The translations under genes were made by a program, and so were the position numbers. This document shows, piece by piece, positions 23,293-57,253 of a stretch of DNA of 64,000 nucleotides (its first letter is position 1; each line of letters begins with the position of its first letter). The stretch comes from Spiroplasma endosymbiont of Dioctria linearis (GTDB taxonomy: Bacteria; Bacillota_I; Bacilli_A; Mycoplasmatales; Mycoplasmataceae). The stretch spans positions 1,116,001-1,180,000 of the forward strand of contig NZ_OZ034984.1 in the NCBI RefSeq assembly GCF_964030865.1, in the 5' to 3' direction. The notes below the pieces were generated by a model. That model did no database searches. It worked only from the letters and a program-made list of their open reading frames with translations, and was not told where the DNA came from.

Positions 23293-24021
23293 ATGAAGAA
23301 AGTTAGAAGTAATATAAACTTAATAATTATTTTTATTCTTCTTTTTTTAACATTTCCTATTCAAAATATCTTAAATCAAAAAACTAATATACTTATATTG
23401 TCAATATTAGTTAATGTGACTTTAATCATAATTTCTTTGTATTTCATCTCTAAATTTATTGTAAATTTACTAAAATTTATCGAAAAATATAATGATGAAA
23501 TATCAAGAAAAAATTTAATAAGTTTAAGCTTATTAAATAATAATTTTAAATTTTATATAACAATGTTGGTTACCTTTTTATTTTTCATTTTTTCAATAAC
23601 TCAAACCTGTATTTCAATTGAAAGAACAACAGTAATTTCAATGGAAATATATTGATGAACAAATTATAAATTTGATAGAGTAATTAACTTAGATTATATA
23701 AATATATTATTTTTTGCTCAGTTTATTTTAATAAGCTCACTTTTACTATACTCATTCTTTTATTTTATATTTTTCTTCTTTATATATTCTGTAATAAAGA
23801 CTGTTTCAAAATCTAATGAAAACTTAAATCACCTTATTTATAAAAAATCTACTAAATTAAATTTATTTTTGAAAATGCTTATTAAGTATTTAAATAATAT
23901 TAAACTACAAGACAAAAAAGTTGAAAATAGTTGAAAAGAAATAATAATTTTAATTAGCAATATTAAATCAAAGGAATTGAAAAGCTTTAAAAAGGCAACG
24001 ACTCCTCCATTATTTTTCTAA
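23293..24021 (+). CDS. Four-helix membrane protein with C-terminal TPPL tail (locus 1)
   Basis: The 242-residue protein has four hydrophobic segments, near residues 9-28, 32-60, 90-112 and 132-165, with loops rich in Lys. A cytoplasmic-type tail of about 75 residues ends KKATTPPLFF. The gene at 52097-52798 has the same topology and ends in KKGVTPPLNTFQ. Both lie directly upstream of giant FtsX-type permease genes. ATG 23293 is preferred to the GTG 12 bases upstream because GTGAGAAA is the likely ribosome site. The family is not recognised; a role with the permease is inferred from position. Confidence 0.7.
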
Positions 24022-24280: not shown

Positions 24281-26563
24281 ATGAAAAAATTACTAAATAT
24301 ATTAACATCTGTAACCTTAATTGGTTCAGCTGCAACATCAGTAGCGGCTTGTGGCGGCGGGGAAAAAAAAGACCCAGACCTTTCTACTATGCAGCAAGAA
24401 ATGCTAAATGGAGCAGAGTTTATTTCAAGACTTATTGTTGCTGGAAGACATGAAAATTTAAATTACAATGTTAATGAAATATTATCAATTTTCTTAACAC
24501 CAACACCAACAGCTATGAACATGCCAATTTCTTATAATTATGAAGGAAAAAGTATAAATATGGCAGCAAATATAAATAAATTTAAAAACTACTTAGCGCC
24601 TTCTTTAAATTACTATAACGGTGATAATTATGCGGGAATGTTTGCTAGTTATCTTATGGGGATGTATGAAGATGACTTTTATAATGAGATAATAAATGGT
24701 AAAAATGGAGAGTATTATTTTAGAGATACTTTTTCAAAAGCAGGTGACCAAGGCTACAATAAAAAAAATAGCAATGCTATGGGTTATGGAGCTGGATTAG
24801 GTAAGGATATTAATTTATCAAAAAATCAAGATAGAAGAAATCTAGCATGAGGAATACAAGATACAGGAGCATTATCAAATTATTTATTGAATTTGGGTTT
24901 TGATGGTGCAAATCCAACTGATACAAATGGGACATCATCACCGAAAACTAGTGCAGGTCCCAATAAAGGGGGAACAAATGGTTCTGGTTATGCATGATAT
25001 AACTCTATTTTAATGAATAATGGAGCTACAAAGAGTGCAGATTATAGCCAAGGTTGAAATGCAATAGGAATTCCACTTACAAAAGGAAAATTAAAGGGAA
25101 CAGACTTTAAAGCAGCAGATGATGAACTTAAATCAAGTATTAATGGAATTAGGTTTAACTCAACAGGAGCTTTAATTACAAAAGTAGCAGGAGAACAAAA
25201 TATAAATGGATTTATTAGTATGTTTGGCTCAATGTTAGAAAATTTATCAGATACAAAAAATGGAGCTTTATTAACTGGAGAATTTATAAATATTTTATTT
25301 CCAATGATAAGAGGTGAAGGTGTTACTAATGCTGCAACTATAATGCAAGCTGTAGGATTATCTTTAATTTATAATGTTTGAAGTGGAATTAAAGAGATAA
25401 ACTCAGAGTTAGTTTCAAACCCTGAATTATCAGAAATAATTGAAAGACTGGATGAACCAAAGAAACTATTTACATCAGTACCAATTGTAGGAGACTTACC
25501 AGTTACAGAAAATATTAAAGTTGAAGCATTATATAAAATGTCAGATAGAGACAAATCAGTAGAAAATCATGGTACAAATGCAAAGGATATTGTTTCAGTA
25601 ATTGAAACTTTAACAGAAATTTATAACTCTTATTCAAATAAGCAGGATTTTAATGATAAATTTTTTATAAACAATGATGCTCCATTTTATAAATCTTATT
25701 CATTAATTAGAAAATATATAGGAGAAGAAAATTGAAAAGATGCAATGAATGGAAAAAATAATGATGGAGGTATAAACCTTTTAAATTTTGCAAAACAAGC
25801 ATTTGAGATGTTAACAGAAAAAGAAGTAATTGATAAATTTGATTCTATAGTTAATGCATTTGATAATAAAAAAAGCTTTAGGGAGTTATCAAGTGTTGAA
25901 AAAAATAATTATTTAAAGTTATTAGGATGAAATGAAGAAGAAGGATATATAGAGGGATCTCTTTCAGGACGTATTTATAATGCTATGACAAACCCTGAAG
26001 TTCACGGACAAAGAGATTTTAAAAAATTCTTTGATAGTTTTAAATATTCTGTAGAAAATGCTATGGGAGAGCTTCATAAACCAGTTCTTCAATATTTAAC
26101 TGATGATAAATATTGAAAGGTTAATAATTTCACAATTAATACAACAAGTAATACACAAAGAGCAGGTAAAATGGAGTTTGATTTAAATTATACTGGTAAT
26201 GGAGATGTTACCTCTAATGCAAGTAAGCAAACTAAAAAGGTTGAGGTTAATGAAAAATTTAATCCATATCAAACTATTGCTGAGAATCAGAAAAAAAATT
26301 GAAAACCTGAAATTGAAAGTAAATTAGATAAAGAAAAAATTGAAAATTCAGGACAAATTTTAGGATTAAAGCAACAAGTTGTTAAAGAAGATGAACTATT
26401 GAAATACGATGGTTTAGGAAATCATTCTGATTATAAGCCAGTAAATAACTCATATAAGATAGTGTGAGAAAATATTTCTAAAAATCCTGATTCACCATAT
26501 TGAGTTATTACATCCTTAAAATCATTTAATGCAAGCGGTCAAGAATTCTATAATATTTATTAA
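24281..26563 (+). CDS. Large lipoprotein (possibly MOLPALP-type family)
   Basis: A 760-residue lipoprotein. The signal peptide MKKLLNILTS... ends in the lipobox SVAAC with Cys24 as the lipid anchor, so it is held on the outer face of the membrane. The mature part has low-complexity Gly/Asn regions near 230-260 and a conserved-looking FLTPTPTAMNMP segment near 75-86. This resembles the mollicute lipoproteins called MOLPALP, which is a memory-based suggestion; I did not see the PALP motif itself. ATG 24281 has AAAGGAG in front; an upstream in-frame ATG at 24254 would spoil the signal peptide. The permease gene begins 5 bases after its stop. Confidence 0.8.
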
Positions 26564-26568
26564 TAACA

Positions 26569-29500
26569 ATGCTTTTATTTAAAAATGGTTTAAGAAAATT
26601 ATTAAAAGACTATGTCCAATTTGGAATATATTTAGTACTTATTACAATTGCTGTTATATTTACTTCAACTTTTGGTATTGTTTCTTCAAATTTAATTAGT
26701 ACAAATAATGAAATAAATAGAAATTTTGAAAAGTTTGATTATTCATTTAGATATACTTCAAGTGCTTATAAATCTAATGATACTCAAACTTTTACTCCGT
26801 GATTTGCATTCAATACAGATTTAGTAAAAGATGATAAGGATAATTATTTCCCAACATTAAGTTTTGGAGATTTAGAAGAAGGTAAAATACTTAAAAGTTA
26901 TGAATTTAAAGACAATTGTGAAAATAATAAGAGCCAGTGCTATGAATCTACTTTAATTTTTGAAAATAGTAGTGCTAAATATGTAAATTTTCACTTTGGA
27001 GATGTGGAGTCAAATTATGAGTATAATAATTCTGATATAGACTATCTACCAAATAAAGATCAAGCAATTACAAACTACTCAGTAGAGCAAAAAATTGAAA
27101 CGGTAAAAAGCGGAGAATTTGGAGATTTTTATAGATTCAATTTGGAAGCAAAAGGTTTTAAGAAATCTTTAATAGGAAATTTATATGAAAAAAACAATAA
27201 TTTTAAAGATGAATATTTAACTGAGGAATCTAAAAAAATAGCTCTACATATTTTTGATTACATGTTTTACTTAAATAATTCTGCTTTAACAAATGTAATT
27301 AAAAAAGATATTATTGATATTTATAATCAAAATAAAACTAATGCTAAGGAGCAGATTGAAGAATATATTAATAATGGATTTGGAGTAATTGATAATGAGG
27401 GTAAATATATATTCTCAAAAAATCAAAATATTATAGATGCTGAAACTGAAGAAAGAAAACTATTTTCAGAGCACGCCAGTTTTTATATTAAAAAATTTGA
27501 TTCTTTCCTAACTTTTAAAACAGATATTAATGAGAATGGATATGAAATTTTAACAAATAAAGTAACTCAAAGAGATTGATTCTCAAATTATTTTGATTTA
27601 TTGGGAGATTTAACAAACTTCAAAATAAGATTAACAAATGAGGCTGTTAAATGGGATTCTAGTGGAAAAAAATTTAGATATATTTCTTCATTCTATAATA
27701 ATCAACAACCAAATAGTGATATTTTAGATGTTCATTTCTATAATTCGGATATATTTAAGTTATATAAAAGAACATATAATATTAATAGCTTTACAGAATA
27801 TTCATTTATATCTTCTAGTGGATATGCTAAATATAATAATTTAGAATTAGGGAAAGGTTATGATATTTTTAACCATAATAATTCTAATGGTCCTTATATT
27901 ATGGATGGGATTGGTGTTGACTCACTCAATGTTTATCCAACAATATATGAAGAAGATTTACTAACTAATCAGGAAAATGAAGCTATTTTTTATATAAGTA
28001 ACTCTTTATTCAATAATCAATTTAATAAGGAGACAAATGAAAAAAGTTATCAGGATGTAAGTAGATCCTATTTGACTTATCAAAAATCTGATAAAAAAAA
28101 TATTGAAAAGGATATAAATTTATTTAAAACTTATTTTGCAGACAATATTTTATATTTAGGACAAGTTGTTAAAAATATTGAAAATGAAAATTATTCAGAG
28201 AATTTATCGAGAGCAAATATAGAAGCTTATAAAGATACAACATTACTAAATATGAGAAGTAATTTATTTCCAGGTGTTGTAAAAGGCTTTTATGCAATAG
28301 CAATAATATTTTGTTTAATCTTTGCTAGTGCTTTAGCATTTGTTGTATACCACATTTTTAAAAAAGTTTTAGTATCTCAAAGAAGTCAAATTGGAAATTT
28401 AAAATCTCTTGGAGTCTCAAATTTTAAAATAATTTCTAATTATATGCTATATATGGCCTTTCCTATATTAATACTTGTACCAATTGGTTGGTTTATCAGT
28501 TTATTTTTACAAGTTTCCTTAATGGGAATCTTTGAAAGATATTTTAACATTCCATCAATTTTCTCAATTAATTGAAAACTTTTATTAGTTGAATTATTTG
28601 CATTTTTGGGAATTGTAAGTTTAATGGTTTTTTTAACTAGTTATTTCACTGTAAAACAATCACCTCTTATTTTATTATCACCAAGCAAAAGTAATAAGCC
28701 AAATACTTTTCTTTCAAAAAGCTTTTCAAAAATAAAAGGAATAAGTTTTACATCTAAATTAAGACTTATAATATTATCTACTGCAATAAAGGATTTAACA
28801 ATATTTTTCTTAATATTATTATTTTCAAGCTCAGTTATAACTCTAGCTTCTGTAGCACCAAATACTATGAAAAATATGTCCAATGAGTATTATAAAAATA
28901 TTAAATATAATAATGATTTTAGTTACAATAATATAGTTATAAATAATCCTTTGACTAGATATTCATTTTATCAAATGGATGAAGAGAATAAAGCTAAAAG
29001 TAATATAGAAGCATCTTTATTTAACACGTTAATAAAAACAAAAGAAAATGATTATAGAACTTTATTTGAAGCTGATTATTGAAAAAATGATAAAGGCATA
29101 TCTTTTAGAAAAAATTTTGATAATATTCTGTTTAATAATTTGCTTACTTTTAAAGGTGGAGTTTTATCAACAGGAATAATGGATGAATTAGTTAATACAG
29201 AATCAAAAATTAGCAAAGAAAAACTAATAGCACAAAGATTTAATAATGTTTCTTGCCAAGTTATTCCTCAATTATTTGGACAACCTTCTATAACTGAGGA
29301 TAAGGATTATAATGAATGTATAAAAAGTATTTCTAATAATATCTTACCTTCTACAATAAAGGAACTTTGGGATAAGGATAAGAATGAATTTAAAAATTTC
29401 TCATTCAATTTTTCAAATATTTCAGTGGATAACAAGATAGATCAAATGTATACTAAAGTTGAATCAATTATTGATGATAATAAGCAAGCAAGATATACTA

Positions 29501-30840
29501 TTTATGGTTTGGACTTATTTGAAGAAAAATCAAAAAACTTATTATTAAAAAATGAGAGCAAAATTAAGTATAATGATTCTTTAGACTATATTCCAGTATT
29601 AATTAATAAAAAGGGAGAATTGGAGGGGTTAAAAGTTGGTAATGAATTTAATTTAAAAACTCCTCAAAACTTATTAGCTATTTTAGGTGGAGATAACTCA
29701 AAAAATGAATTAGACTCTAGTTTATGAAAATTCAAAGATAAAAACCTCTTTGAAATGGATTTAGATAAGTTCACTTATGCTATTAACCATGACTTTTATT
29801 TTAAAAATGGTAGTATTTATGAGCCTTATTACAATATGGCAGATATTCAATTGTCACTTCCAAAAAAAATGCTTAATCAAGAATTATTTAATGAAGTTAA
29901 TATAGAGTATCAGCAATATTCGAATAAGGATTTAAACTCAATTTATAGAGAAGAGTCAGATAATTATATTATCAATCCTTTTGATATATATAAATATGAA
30001 AAGGGTGTTCCAACTGAAATAGGAATAGAAACCCTGTTAGGAGGAACGAACAGCTGATTAAATATTGCATTAAAAAAAGGTTTATTAGTAAATAAAATTG
30101 TAGACTCTGCGCCAAGAAAAGCAAAAGTTGTAGGAGTAGAGGAATTGTATGATGGAAATAAATTATATATGGATCAATTATATGCAAATGAACTAATGGG
30201 TGTAAAAGAAGATTTTGATACTAGAAGAGAGTTTGAGAATGGTTCTTCAGTAAATATTTGAAGTAATGCTAAAATGAGTTCAAATATACAAAATGCTGAT
30301 CAAATGCAAAGAATTTTATTATCATCATTTAATGCAAATAATGCAACTGATGGATTTGCAAAATACATGGACCAATCAATTGGTTATACAGACTATATTC
30401 AAATGAAAAAAATGGCTATGAGTAATCTTATTACTTCAGTAATATCTATCTCTGTTATATTTGTTTCATTATCATTAATAACAGCTATTATTATAATTTA
30501 TCTGATTACTGAAATGTTTATAGGAAGATATAAGCGATTTATGAGCTATATGCGAATTCAAGGATATTCAATGAGAGAAATTAACTCTATTATTATGTGA
30601 ATATTCTTACCTATAGCTGCAATTGGTGTGGCATTGGGAATAACAATTATTTGACTTTTAATAAGTTATTTAGTCCCTCAAATACTGCTTTCACTTGATA
30701 TAGCAGTGCCAATGATAATGGGTTGGACAATTATGCCTATTGTCTTTATTGTAGGATTAGCAATATTCCTATTAGGTTATACAGTAATTATGTTATCTAT
30801 TAGAAGAGTTAAATTAGCTTCTTTAATAGGAAATGAGTAG
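26569..30840 (+). CDS. Giant FtsX-type ABC transporter permease (1423 residues)
   Basis: The protein has TM1 near residues 18-45, a large outer domain, three helices near 565-700, a helix at about 740-760, a second large outer domain, and three C-terminal helices (about 1283-1420). This is a doubled FtsX/MacB layout: a cytoplasmic loop SQRSQIGNLKSLGVS follows the second helix, and the C-terminal counterpart is RFMSYMRIQGYSMREI. No ATPase gene is adjacent. It lacks a ribosome site and starts 5 bases after the lipoprotein stop, implying translational coupling. TGG is used beside TGA for Trp. The outer domains carry paired cysteines. Substrate unknown; lipoprotein release or attachment is possible. 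Confidence 0.8.
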
Positions 30841-52096: not shown

Positions 52097-52798
52097 ATGA
52101 ATAGTTGTAATAAAAAAAATGTAAAAAAACTATACCTGTTATTTGTTTTAACTCATTTAACTATTATTTTTGCATCAACTTTTTTTGAATATTCAAATGA
52201 TAATTTTTATATTGCGATACAAATTACATGAATAATAAACACTGTGATAATTAGTTTAATATGTTTTTGAATAATTATCGAATCAATGGTTATAATTAAT
52301 AAGCTTAAAAAAAGTTTTATCGGTTTTAAGACATTTAAATGTTTTAAAAGATTTACTTATCTAAATGAGTTTTTTAATTTAATATTAATTACAGTACCAA
52401 TTTTTATTTCAACCGAATATCAAGCTGTAGAATATTTTTGAGACTCAAATCAAAGTATAATAAATTTAGAGTTCTTTTTAATAGTTTTATTTACTATAAT
52501 AGTTTTATTTACTTGTGTAATTATTTCACTAAATATAGTTTATGAAAAAATAATAAATAAAATAAAATTAAAAATGACTGAGCAAGTATTTTTTAATTTT
52601 TCAAAAATAGTCAAAAAAGAGTCATTTTTTTCAGAATATTCAAATATTACAAAATCTCTATTACAAAAAATTGAGTTGGAATTTGAACCTATTTTCGAGA
52701 AAAGTTATTTTGTAGAAGAAGTTGTTAATTGGAAAAAGAGTTTTCATCTTAAAATTTTAAAAAAAGGAGTTACTCCCCCATTAAACACTTTTCAATAA
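52097..52798 (+). CDS. Four-helix membrane protein with C-terminal TPPL tail (locus 2)
   Basis: The 233-residue protein has hydrophobic segments near residues 11-30, 36-65, 92-112 and 130-155, then a tail of about 75 residues ending KKGVTPPLNTFQ. Topology and tail match the protein at 23293-24021 (ending KKATTPPLFF), although the rest is too diverged to align by eye. GGGGAG precedes the ATG. Both TGA and TGG encode Trp. It lies 36 bases before the second giant permease, so the two genes are probably co-transcribed. Function unknown. Confidence 0.7.
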
Positions 52799-52834: not shown

Positions 52835-55800
52835 ATGAAGGGAATTAGACTTTTACTAAAGAATGCTTTTAAGGCTGCTGGAAAAAATAAGCCACAAATT
52901 ATAGGCTTATCACTTTTAGTTATGTTGGTATCTTTAGTTATATCTGTTTTAGGAGCAACTTCAACTAGAATAGTTGGAGCTTATAATTATTTAAATACAC
53001 AATCTAATTTAAGAGATTATGTTTTAGATATTAATTTAGAAGATAAAATATTGGAACCTGATGAGAATGGTAAGGATATAAAGGAATGAGAAACTGATAA
53101 AAAACTTGTAAAAGATGATATGCTTTATCAACAATATATTATGAATCAAATTGCACTCAAATATGATTTGGATGTATCTTTTACTGAAGCAAGACTAATA
53201 TCAGGTTTATATGGTAAAAAAGGTGATATTAGAATTAAAGCAATAGCGAAAATTAATTCTGATTTAAATAAGGGTGTAGATAAACTTGTAATTTCAAAAG
53301 GAAGATCTTTTAAGGAAAATGCTAAAGAAGTTGTTATTGGTGAATCTTATGCTAAACAAAATGGAATTAAAATTGGTGATATTGTTAGAATTAACTCTGA
53401 TAAATATGGAAATGATTTATTAGTTAAAAATACACAAGGTAACTCAACTGAGGTAAAACAACTTAACGAAGATTTAAAAAATATGAAGGATGTTCAAACT
53501 TTTTTAAATAGTAATAGTTATAAAAACCAGGTTTGATTCGAAGTTGTTGGAATTGGAACATCAGCAGATTTTACAACTCCAATAATGGATGAAACAACAA
53601 TAATGCCAAACATTAATAATGAGCTTTTAATGTACATGGATCCATCATGAATGGGATATGAAAGTACTGGATATAATTTTACAAAAGTAACAGAAGAAGA
53701 AACAACAAAAAGAGAAATTGTTCAAAAAAATATGGCCTCATATATTGTTTCAAATGCAAAAGTAGTTGTCACTTCTGAAAATGATAGAGAAGCCTACATT
53801 TCTGTAAAATCAAGTAATAAAAGTAATAATAAACTTTTAGATAATCTAGAAAAAGAATATAAAACTTGAGCAGATATCAAAATAGATAGTAAATATATAT
53901 TTGCTTCAAATGATCCATTATATAAATTCTCAACGAGAATAACAACATTTAAATCTATTATGACAGGTTATAATTCAATGGCAACAGGATTAATAGTTGT
54001 TATAGTTGCTATTGCTGGATTCACAACAGTATTAACAACTAAAAAACAAGTAGAATTACAAAGTAGACAAATTGGATGTTTAAAATCATTAGGATATAAA
54101 AAGCGTGAGATTGTTAATAACTTCATTGCACTTCCCCTGATAGTTTCAATTCTTGGAGCTCTAATGGGATATATTATTTCAATATTCATTGAAACAATAA
54201 TTGTAAATATATTTTCAAATTACTTTAATATTGCTTTCTTTGGATTTAAATTTAATATTGTTTCATTTTGTTCAAGTATTATTGGTTTATGAATAGGTTT
54301 AACATTATTGGCATTTATAATTGGTTATTGAACAATTAGATTGCCAGCTCTTACTTTATTAAAGGGTGGAGATGATAAAGTAATTAATAAATTCTCAATG
54401 TATATTAAGTCCTTATTTTCAAAAAGAAGTTTTAATCCAAGATTAAGAGCAGCTCTGTTAACGACTTCTTTAGGTAAATTGGTAGGGGTTAGTGCAACTA
54501 TGCTTTTAAGTGCAACTCTTATTACAACAACAATTGTGGCACCAAAAGTTATGAAAGATAACATGATAGCTACCTTCAATGGAATGAATTATGAAAATAT
54601 GGTTGAATATACTCAACCAATCGCAAATAACCCATGATCATTTCAAAGAACATATAACCCAAATTGAGATAGTGAAAAAGAGGGTTGAGGGCAATATGAC
54701 GATGAGATATTAATAAGAAATAGTGGAAATGGAACAGATATTGGGGGACAAACTGGTCCAGCTGGATTTGCAAAAGGTTGAACTGCCTATCCAACTACTG
54801 ATGGTTATGATCCTATTGCAAAAGAAAATGGAAAAATAATAAATTGAGAGAAAGTTTATTTAGAACTTTTAGAAGGTAAAATAAGTCCTTATTACTATAC
54901 TTATGATATAGCTAAAAATGATAAATTTTTCTGAACTGAGTTTTCATATTTAAACTGAAAAAATATGTCAACTAAACTACTTCAAAATTTGGACAAAGCC
55001 AATGTATCTGGACTTGGAGCGGGTGAAGCACTAAAACAATTACAAGCACAGTGACCAGATTATACTAATTTAGTAAATAATGAATTTACTAAAATGATTA
55101 AGGAAAATCCTGATTTAAATGATCTAAAAAAATATGCAAATTTAATGATTAATTTTTATAGCAAATATACTAAAGGATTGAAGTTGAATTACAATAATAT
55201 GATTGTAGGTGAAGGTGATAATGCATATATTGATCCAAATAAAGCAAAAAATAATATGAATGATATTATTAAAAATGATTATAAGGGTGGATTTTTAAAA
55301 GCAAAGGGTGTAAATGATTATTGATTTAAAGGTCAAGATTTAAGTTCTGATAAATTAACAAGTTATATGCAAATTGATGAAAGTGAAACAGCACAATTTA
55401 CATTTAAATGAAAAGATGAAGATTTTATAAATCCAATAAATATTGATAAGCAAGATATTAATAATCTAGAAGAAAAAGATAAGCAAATGCTTAAAAATTT
55501 AAATACAGCTTTAACATTATGATTTGGTTCTGTTATTGATGGAAGAATGGGTTTAGCAGTATTACAAACAACTTATACTAGATCTCCTTATTTTGTTCAA
55601 GAATATATGAAAAATGCAATAGAAAATAATGAAAATTATAATATTACTTTTAATTTAATTCCATATGATAATACTAAAGATGAAATTGGAACTATGCTTA
55701 ATACTGCTTTTTTAACTAAAACTGGAAAAACAGAAAATGCTAAAATATTTGGAATTAATAATAATTCAAAAATGGTCTCTTTAAAAAATAAAAAGGGTGC

Positions 55801-57253
55801 AGATTTAAATGAAGTAGTATTTTCTAAAAATTACAGTAATAAAATACCCTTAGTAATTAATGAAAGCTTTAATAAAAAAATTGGCAAAGAAGTAGGTCAA
55901 ACTATTTCACTTAAAGTTTTAAGGGAAATGTTGACTAAAGAAAATAAAGTTTTAAATTTAGAAAAAGATATTAAATATGGTCATAATATAGTTAAAAATG
56001 AAAAACTTAATTTTAAAGAATTAAGAACTCAATCAACTTATGGATATTATACTAATGGGGGTATATATGCAAATAACTCAGCAGCTTTAGCTAGTACTGG
56101 TGGTGTTGACTCTTCATCTATAGGGGGAATTAACATAGCAGCCAAATATGCTGATAAAGCAACAAACCCTATTGATATTTATAAATCATATAAGAATGGA
56201 GAAGTTAAAATAAACTCAAAATATGATAATGTTGAATTTATAATAGCAGGAGTTCAAAACGGTTATGGTCAACCACAAGGGTGAATCTCAAATGAAAATG
56301 CAAATGAAATTATGCAATATGATCAGGTTAAAAAATACAACTTTGAAAATTGATTTGCAAGAGAATATCCACAAAAAAACCCACTATACAATTTTGAAAA
56401 ATTCTCGAATGGTGATGAAGAAAAAATTCAAGGTGTTACATTAGAAGAATTCATACAAGAAGTTTATGATGGGAAAAGAACATATGAAGACTTTATAGCT
56501 AATGTACAAAGAAGTAAAGAAGGATCAAGTTGAAGAAATATGAATCAACTTTATGAAAATTTATATCCTGTATTTAATTATAAGTATAGTTATGATAACA
56601 ATATTGTTGACTTAACTCAGGGATTCTCGGTATCATCAAAAATTGGTGACTTTAGTTCAGTTGGTTTAAATGGTAGTTTTGAAACAATTTCTGTACCTTG
56701 TCCAGAAGAAAATTCTACAAGAGATGATGAAAATCAATGTACAACAGTTGATCCTGAAAAATTTAATCAAGGTTATGGAATTGGGACACTTTCAACAATG
56801 TTACCAAAAGAACAAACTAGACAAATATTAGGTCAAGTTACTGACTTAATAAACTTAATTATTATTATGTTTATAACAATAGCAATTATTGTTTCTGCAA
56901 CAATTATTCTTTTAACAACAAGTTTAATTATTTTTGAAAATAAACAATTTATTGCAACAATGAAAACACTAGGATATTCAAATTCATATGTTGTAAGACA
57001 AATTTTAGGAATGTATATACTGCCAATTTTAATTATGTATGTCATTGGTTTTATAGCAGGATGATATATCTTTGTAATAATAGCTGATTTCTTAGCTTTA
57101 AATACTGCATGGGTTTTACCAGTAAATTTCTCACTGTGATTGCCATTTACAGTATTTGCAGTTATTGCAACAATTTATATAGTAACTTTTGCAATTGGAT
57201 GAAAAAATATTCAAAAAATTAATCCATTGGAAGCTTTGAAAGATAATGATTAA
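52835..57253 (+). CDS. Giant FtsX-type ABC transporter permease (1472 residues)
   Basis: TM1 lies near residues 18-45, an outer domain follows to about 370, then three helices (about 376-505), a helix at 545-570, a very large outer domain (about 575-1325) and three C-terminal helices ending at 1472. This is the doubled FtsX/MacB layout, with LQSRQIGCLKSLGYKKREI and ATMKTLGYSNSYVV as the matching cytoplasmic motifs after the first helix of each module. It is related in layout to 26569-30840. No ATPase or lipoprotein gene is adjacent. TAGGAGG precedes the ATG. Function unknown; envelope protein or lipid transport is possible. Confidence 0.8.

Follow-up and report, generated by a model that had tools for sequence, protein, structure and literature searches.

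FtsX-type permeases work with an ATPase, and the MacB permease makes contact with the ATPase domain through a minor coupling helix at its C-terminus (PMC5985334). The MacB-type transporter YknXYZ of Bacillus has a small membrane protein, YknW, which modulates its assembly (PMC4887032). The window analysed here, a stretch of 64,000 nucleotides from the Spiroplasma endosymbiont of Dioctria linearis, contains two loci in which a protein with four predicted hydrophobic helices and a short C-terminal KK-PP peptide (hereafter, tail protein) is encoded upstream of a giant FtsX permease (Table 1). Like the YknWXYZ system, the arrangement described here combines a small multi-helix membrane protein with a MacB-type system, a membrane-anchored extracytoplasmic component and, putatively, a separate ATPase. 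YknW is the closest precedent in role, but the tail proteins are unrelated to it in sequence: YknW belongs to the Yip1 family, whereas none of 68 tail proteins matched the Pfam Yip1 model. In addition, the permeases here are giants with a double FtsX, a Pfam search of the locus 1 lipoprotein gave no domain, and the candidate ATPase, conserved throughout the taxonomic family, has its gene at another site in most cases. To our knowledge, no KK-PP tail has been described for YknW.

The permeases can also be compared with the type VII systems MacB, LolCDE and DevBCA. They carry FtsX (PF02687) domains, with a weak MacB_PCD match in two of them (0.0043-0.0049, below cut-off; 0.0049 in the second permease of the window) and none in the others, and the best models for the candidate ATPase are DevA, MacB and LolD. 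They differ in their length of about 1200-1880 residues with two FtsX units in one chain, in an ATPase that has extra conserved ends and falls below the curated cut-offs of those models, and in the probable extra four-helix subunit. The lipoprotein of locus 1 resembles the mollicute paralogous lipoproteins (MOLPALP, TIGR04547) in size, in its occurrence in related bacteria and in the signal peptide region, but the match covers residues 1-44 only (23.6 bits, below the cut-off of 65), and neither the body nor the full length matched. As the preliminary description had supposed, searches of Pfam, NCBIfam, the PDB and a paper collection yielded no described system of tail protein plus giant permease, and a literature search on FtsX-like permeases in Spiroplasma returned nothing.

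The window was read with translation table 4 (TGA=W), a code which, like the types of lipoprotein signal, fits a Spiroplasma-like genome. Both four-helix proteins of the preliminary description are real open reading frames, each with four predicted helices followed by a helical tail, and the giant permease that it had placed after each, as well as the lipoprotein gene with a lipobox in between at locus 1, were confirmed. The gene order is alaS, tail protein, lipoprotein and 1423-aa permease at locus 1, and truA, tail protein and 1472-aa permease at locus 2, where the last two genes are 36 bases apart. Tail protein 1 is 36-90% identical to its relatives in the genus, all of which have the C-terminal PP, and tail protein 2 is 41-88% identical to its own relatives, with tails that read KKGVTPP or KRGVTPP. 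AlphaFold2 modelled tail protein 1 as all-helical (mean pLDDT 77, and ~90 in the cytoplasmic helices that precede the tail), and Foldseek detected no solved relative of the model. Lipoprotein 1 has 7 relatives among the loci fetched; its model was poor (mean pLDDT 55), and no convincing match to a solved structure was obtained with Foldseek.

Table 1. Features of the two loci and of related loci. Plain positions are those of the window; G000 is the genome of the window, and other G and L numbers are our designations of genomes and fetched loci.
Feature	Position	Strand	Description
Tail protein 1	23293..24021	+	242 aa, four TM helices, helical cytoplasmic tail, C-terminus KKATTPPLFF (from translation)
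Codons of the conserved tail KKATTPPLFF	23989..24018	+	AAA AAG GCA ACG ACT CCT CCA TTA TTT TTC
Lipoprotein 1	24281..26563	+	760 aa, lipobox; NCBIfam LP_plasma lipobox above cut-off
Giant permease 1	26569..30840	+	1423 aa, 8 predicted TM, two FtsX domains (PF02687)
Tail protein 2	52097..52798	+	233 aa, four TM helices, C-terminus KKGVTPPLNTFQ (from translation)
Giant permease 2	52835..57253	+	1472 aa, two FtsX domains (PF02687 1.8e-26)
Third tail protein	G000:1182862-1183560 (L039)		232 aa, end KKATTPPLI; then lipoprotein, 1364-aa permease, another lipoprotein
Fourth tail protein	G000:24131-24904 (L036)		End KLKGECPPNSII; then 1243-aa permease
Fifth relative	G000:414410-415222 (L198 2410-3222)		Degenerate end KKSINEPEFSTLTI, beside valS; from profile search
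Giant permease without tail protein	L037 11085-16301, window's genome		1738 aa; divergent lipoprotein genes upstream
Giant permease without tail protein	L038 11141-15334, window's genome		1397 aa; row of lipoprotein genes downstream
Candidate shared ATPase	G000:1039257-1040243 (L119 1294-2286, L148, L238)		330 aa; beside hslO, no permease adjoining
FtsX domains with their own ATPase	G001:500k, G007:497k, G009:339k, G012:750k and 1036k, G008:612k, G018:552k		

The preliminary description had seen two loci. Both stand, but they are not the only ones: beyond the window the same genome (1,230,581 bases) carries two more units and a fifth, tail-degenerate relative that adjoins valS. A whole-genome FtsX search detected twelve FtsX domains, which form six double-FtsX permeases, and in every giant permease examined PF02687 scored over its cut-off in two stretches. 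Several giant permeases, two of them in this genome, have neither an adjoining tail protein nor an ATPase of their own, which suggests that the subunit is not needed by all.

When single proteins were searched against 60 related genomes, members turned up in the same genus and in one other. With wider searches, by a 24-row and then a 68-row profile, tail proteins were detected in 46 of the 60 genomes of the taxonomic family, in seven genera, including all 20 genomes of the genus; outside the taxonomic family, among the rest of the 298 genomes of the order, there were only weak partial matches with E-values of 1e-4 or worse. The collected family comprises 110 relatives, and the surrounding DNA was read for about 110. 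Diverged members, with ends such as KKASSPPISLD, KKASAPPSFN, KKASTPPII and KKNIDPP, occur in genomes without matches to the first profile, and some are detectable only by reading the DNA upstream of permeases. Against Pfam and NCBIfam there were scattered weak matches to single members, and a sequence search of the PDB returned helical look-alikes only, the best being a designed protein at 0.0025. No known family therefore fits the tail proteins, and the family appears to be undescribed in the sources searched.

In an alignment of 68 sequences the two prolines are the sole invariant columns, and one lysine is conserved in more than 90%. PP lies close to the C-terminus (14 residues or fewer from the end) in 105 of the 110 members, for which the consensus is K-K-[GAS]-x-T-P-P: counting back from the first proline, K is found at -5 in 94 and at -4 in 97 of the 105, G, A or S at -3 in 86, and T at -2 in 59 and at -1 in 60. 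Hence, of the KK-x-x-TPPL ending that had been proposed, the two prolines and the two preceding lysines hold, but the final L does not. The result is that an unnamed and widespread family is now defined by one testable peptide.

A body HMM from which the tail was omitted was built to limit circularity. Applied to 40 loci outside its training set, which had themselves been located by a profile that included the tail, it recognized 37 members, 32 of them with the PP tail; across all loci, 98 of 103 body-HMM matches had the tail. A Kx3PP sequence near the C-terminus was present in 7 of 976 other neighbouring genes. All seven encode membrane proteins of 200-243 aa that precede a giant permease or a lipoprotein, and they are family members too diverged for the HMM. 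None of the remaining 969 genes, the background of this sample, had the tail, which rules out a general C-terminal motif of the genome.

Although the genome is AT-rich, the tail codons are rich in C, and a ribosome-binding site follows them, as would be expected if the tail were a by-product of a DNA or RNA element, e.g., a CCNCC sequence able to base-pair with the ribosome-binding site ahead of the next gene. However, the first proline codon is CCA in 67, CCT in 32, CCC in 5 and CCG in 1 of the 105 members, tail codons differ synonymously among relatives, and the next start lies anywhere from 17 to about 400 bases away. Since the proline codons vary while the amino acids stay, it is the peptide and not the DNA that is conserved; an anti-Shine-Dalgarno or other such element is extremely unlikely, and is largely ruled out by the codon variation. 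A second possibility is that the peptide matters during synthesis and not as a ligand, i.e., that PP near the stop codon slows the ribosome (an EF-P-type stall), holds it at the membrane and thereby couples synthesis of the tail protein to that of the next gene, which often starts 17-70 bases downstream. The position of PP in 105 members, no more than 14 residues from the end, agrees with this. Strong PP stalling favours particular residues after PP, whereas here that residue is free (L is commonest, and N, S, D, E, H and others occur); conservation also extends to two lysines and a small residue ahead of PP, and the gap to the next gene can reach about 400 bases. We consider stalling improbable.

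Giant permeases are the most frequent downstream neighbours. Sixty-eight of the 110 members lie upstream of a giant FtsX permease: 47 directly, mostly with gaps of 17-70 bases, 16 with one or more lipoprotein genes in between, and 5 past another gene. Another 20 precede a lipoprotein with no permease seen next, although in some of these cases the fetched DNA stops there or the permease is broken (L084); 16 adjoin valS, and 6 have other surroundings. The recurrent functional module that had been suggested from two sites is thus supported by the 68 loci and by the 20 with a lipoprotein, and the profile search that had been proposed as a check yielded both recurrent linkage and a conserved PP (68 and 105 of 110, respectively). 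Homologues of the kinds that would have spoken against the suggestion do occur, in a minority: the PP end is missing from 5 of the 110, and 16 have valS as their neighbour instead of a permease.

The same counts can be read differently. The tail could be a general membrane-protein handling signal, recognized by a protease, chaperone or targeting factor, on a protein whose main associate is the neighbouring lipoprotein; it might serve lipoprotein display or quality control, for instance, and the permeases would be one class of client. The 20 members before a lipoprotein without a permease and the 16 beside valS indicate that the tail is not bound to FtsX alone, and lipoproteins are also encoded between, or after, tail protein and permease. 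On the other hand, most members precede a giant permease, some of the lipoprotein-only loci are edge cases whose permease may lie beyond the fetched DNA, and absence from all 969 other genes would be odd for a general signal. This explanation is unlikely.

At two loci (L084 and L053) the giant permease gene is apparently broken into several ORFs, and the upstream tail-protein gene retains KKATTPP or KRGVTPP. In genus g5 (L115, L214, L215, L219 and L223) the tails are K[ML]R[NI]MPP or RMRNVPP, and what usually follows is a gene for a large lipoprotein (about 640-844 aa) and not for a permease. The valS branch (L198, L090, L093, L095, L098, L101, L117, L199-L202, L204, L207, L212, L216, L218, L221 and L228) often lies 370-400 bases ahead of valS with no permease adjoining, and in four genomes, including that of the window, its PP tail has decayed (KKSINEPEF, KKSIKKPEF, EKSVKKHAI). 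The valS branch, with its loss of PP, argues that the family is broader than the permeases or that this branch changed partner.

A candidate for the ATPase was found away from the permeases (Table 1). Among 30 ABC ATPase loci read in the window's genome, only this one has the motif DEPTGALD. Its orthologue is present, one per genome, in 60 of 60 genomes of the taxonomic family, with 60-99% identity, compared with the 46 of 60 in which tail proteins were found. Outside the ABC core an N-terminal stretch (GVK..K.K.K.QKQ.T.KYSK.IL.G.I.STTG) and a C-terminal stretch (NP.PKKPSEIDWS) are conserved, and these extensions could be sites that accept a peptide. In two similar genomes (G065 and G076) all parts form a run on one strand with short gaps, in the order ftsH, hslO, tail protein, permease (1380 and 1383 aa, respectively), lipoprotein and ATPase, the tail proteins ending in KKETCPPLLIF and LLIN; this run is possibly the outcome of one event. 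Judged by coordinates, seven FtsX domains in the genus adjoin an ATPase of their own, and none of the seven is at a tail-protein locus. We take the single conserved ATPase to be the likely partner of the permeases in the window's genome.

It is probable that the four-helix proteins form the fourth component, a membrane-embedded accessory subunit, of MacB-type (type VII) ABC machines whose permeases are the double-FtsX giants. The family, its tail, its linkage, the one conserved ATPase per genome and the gene run with all parts are what we observe, and from them we infer a physical complex, docking on the ATPase and mechanical work. The diverging membrane part would pair with one permease or lipoprotein set, and the helical cytoplasmic tail would end in a common plug, the KK-[GAS]-x-T-P-P peptide plus a few free residues. 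Such a plug would bind a partner common to all copies, the likeliest being the single conserved ATPase. In this way each tail protein would help to bring the shared motor to its own permease, or to gate it there, and the permease would then do mechanical work on the outer side of the membrane, acting on the neighbouring lipoprotein or together with it. An adaptor would look like this: the diverging membrane part would fit one system each, and the terminal peptide, which is common to all, would fit the shared partner. Moreover, because the minor coupling helix of MacB touches the ATPase, a second cytoplasmic peptide at that surface is reasonable. We propose the whole reading, an accessory subunit of a MacB/LolCDE-type machine that acts through its tail on a shared ATPase to support mechanical work, tentatively and at somewhat less than even chances; docking of the tail on the shared DevA/LolD/MacB-type ATPase, taken by itself, is possible, if on the doubtful side. 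It is plausible that the terminal peptide serves in docking or sorting, as the preliminary description had suggested. A still more general form, in which a lineage-specific family of membrane adaptors, all with one interchangeable C-terminal peptide, lets many different giant permeases and lipoprotein systems of a cell draw on a single ABC motor, is rather unlikely; we know of no such plug-in architecture described for ABC transporters.

The tail might instead block the ATPase, the protein being a membrane regulator or inhibitor that keeps the transporter idle until a signal arrives. The linkage and tail data are common to the recruiting and the blocking readings, and the permease C-termini are also basic, some with proline (KINPLEALKDKD, IKKRPLTLLVS), so that the tail could compete with them for the ATPase surface. 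The likeness between tail and permease ends was, however, judged by eye, and we regard inhibition as a long shot. If the tail binds the conserved ATPase, this would explain how one motor can drive several giant permeases in genome-reduced bacteria, and would give an entry point to the substrates and roles of these transporters.

For 41 of the 68 linked pairs, tail protein and permease have their best hits at one and the same locus, against about 1 expected from permutation; shared vertical descent of the operons would by itself account for this concordance, just as well as physical pairing would. One pair of classes is an exception: tail proteins of the locus 1 type are also found ahead of 1650-aa permeases that are unrelated, at the same alaS site but in other genomes. 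At one locus (L054, G019:1179001-1198000) the interval from alaS to the ribosomal gene cluster contains two tail-protein/permease units arranged in tandem. The first consists of a shortened tail protein, a lipoprotein and a 1429-aa permease, and the second of a tail protein and a 1667-aa permease. Other genomes keep one unit or the other and, given both in one genome, differential loss of tandem units at the alaS site is likely.
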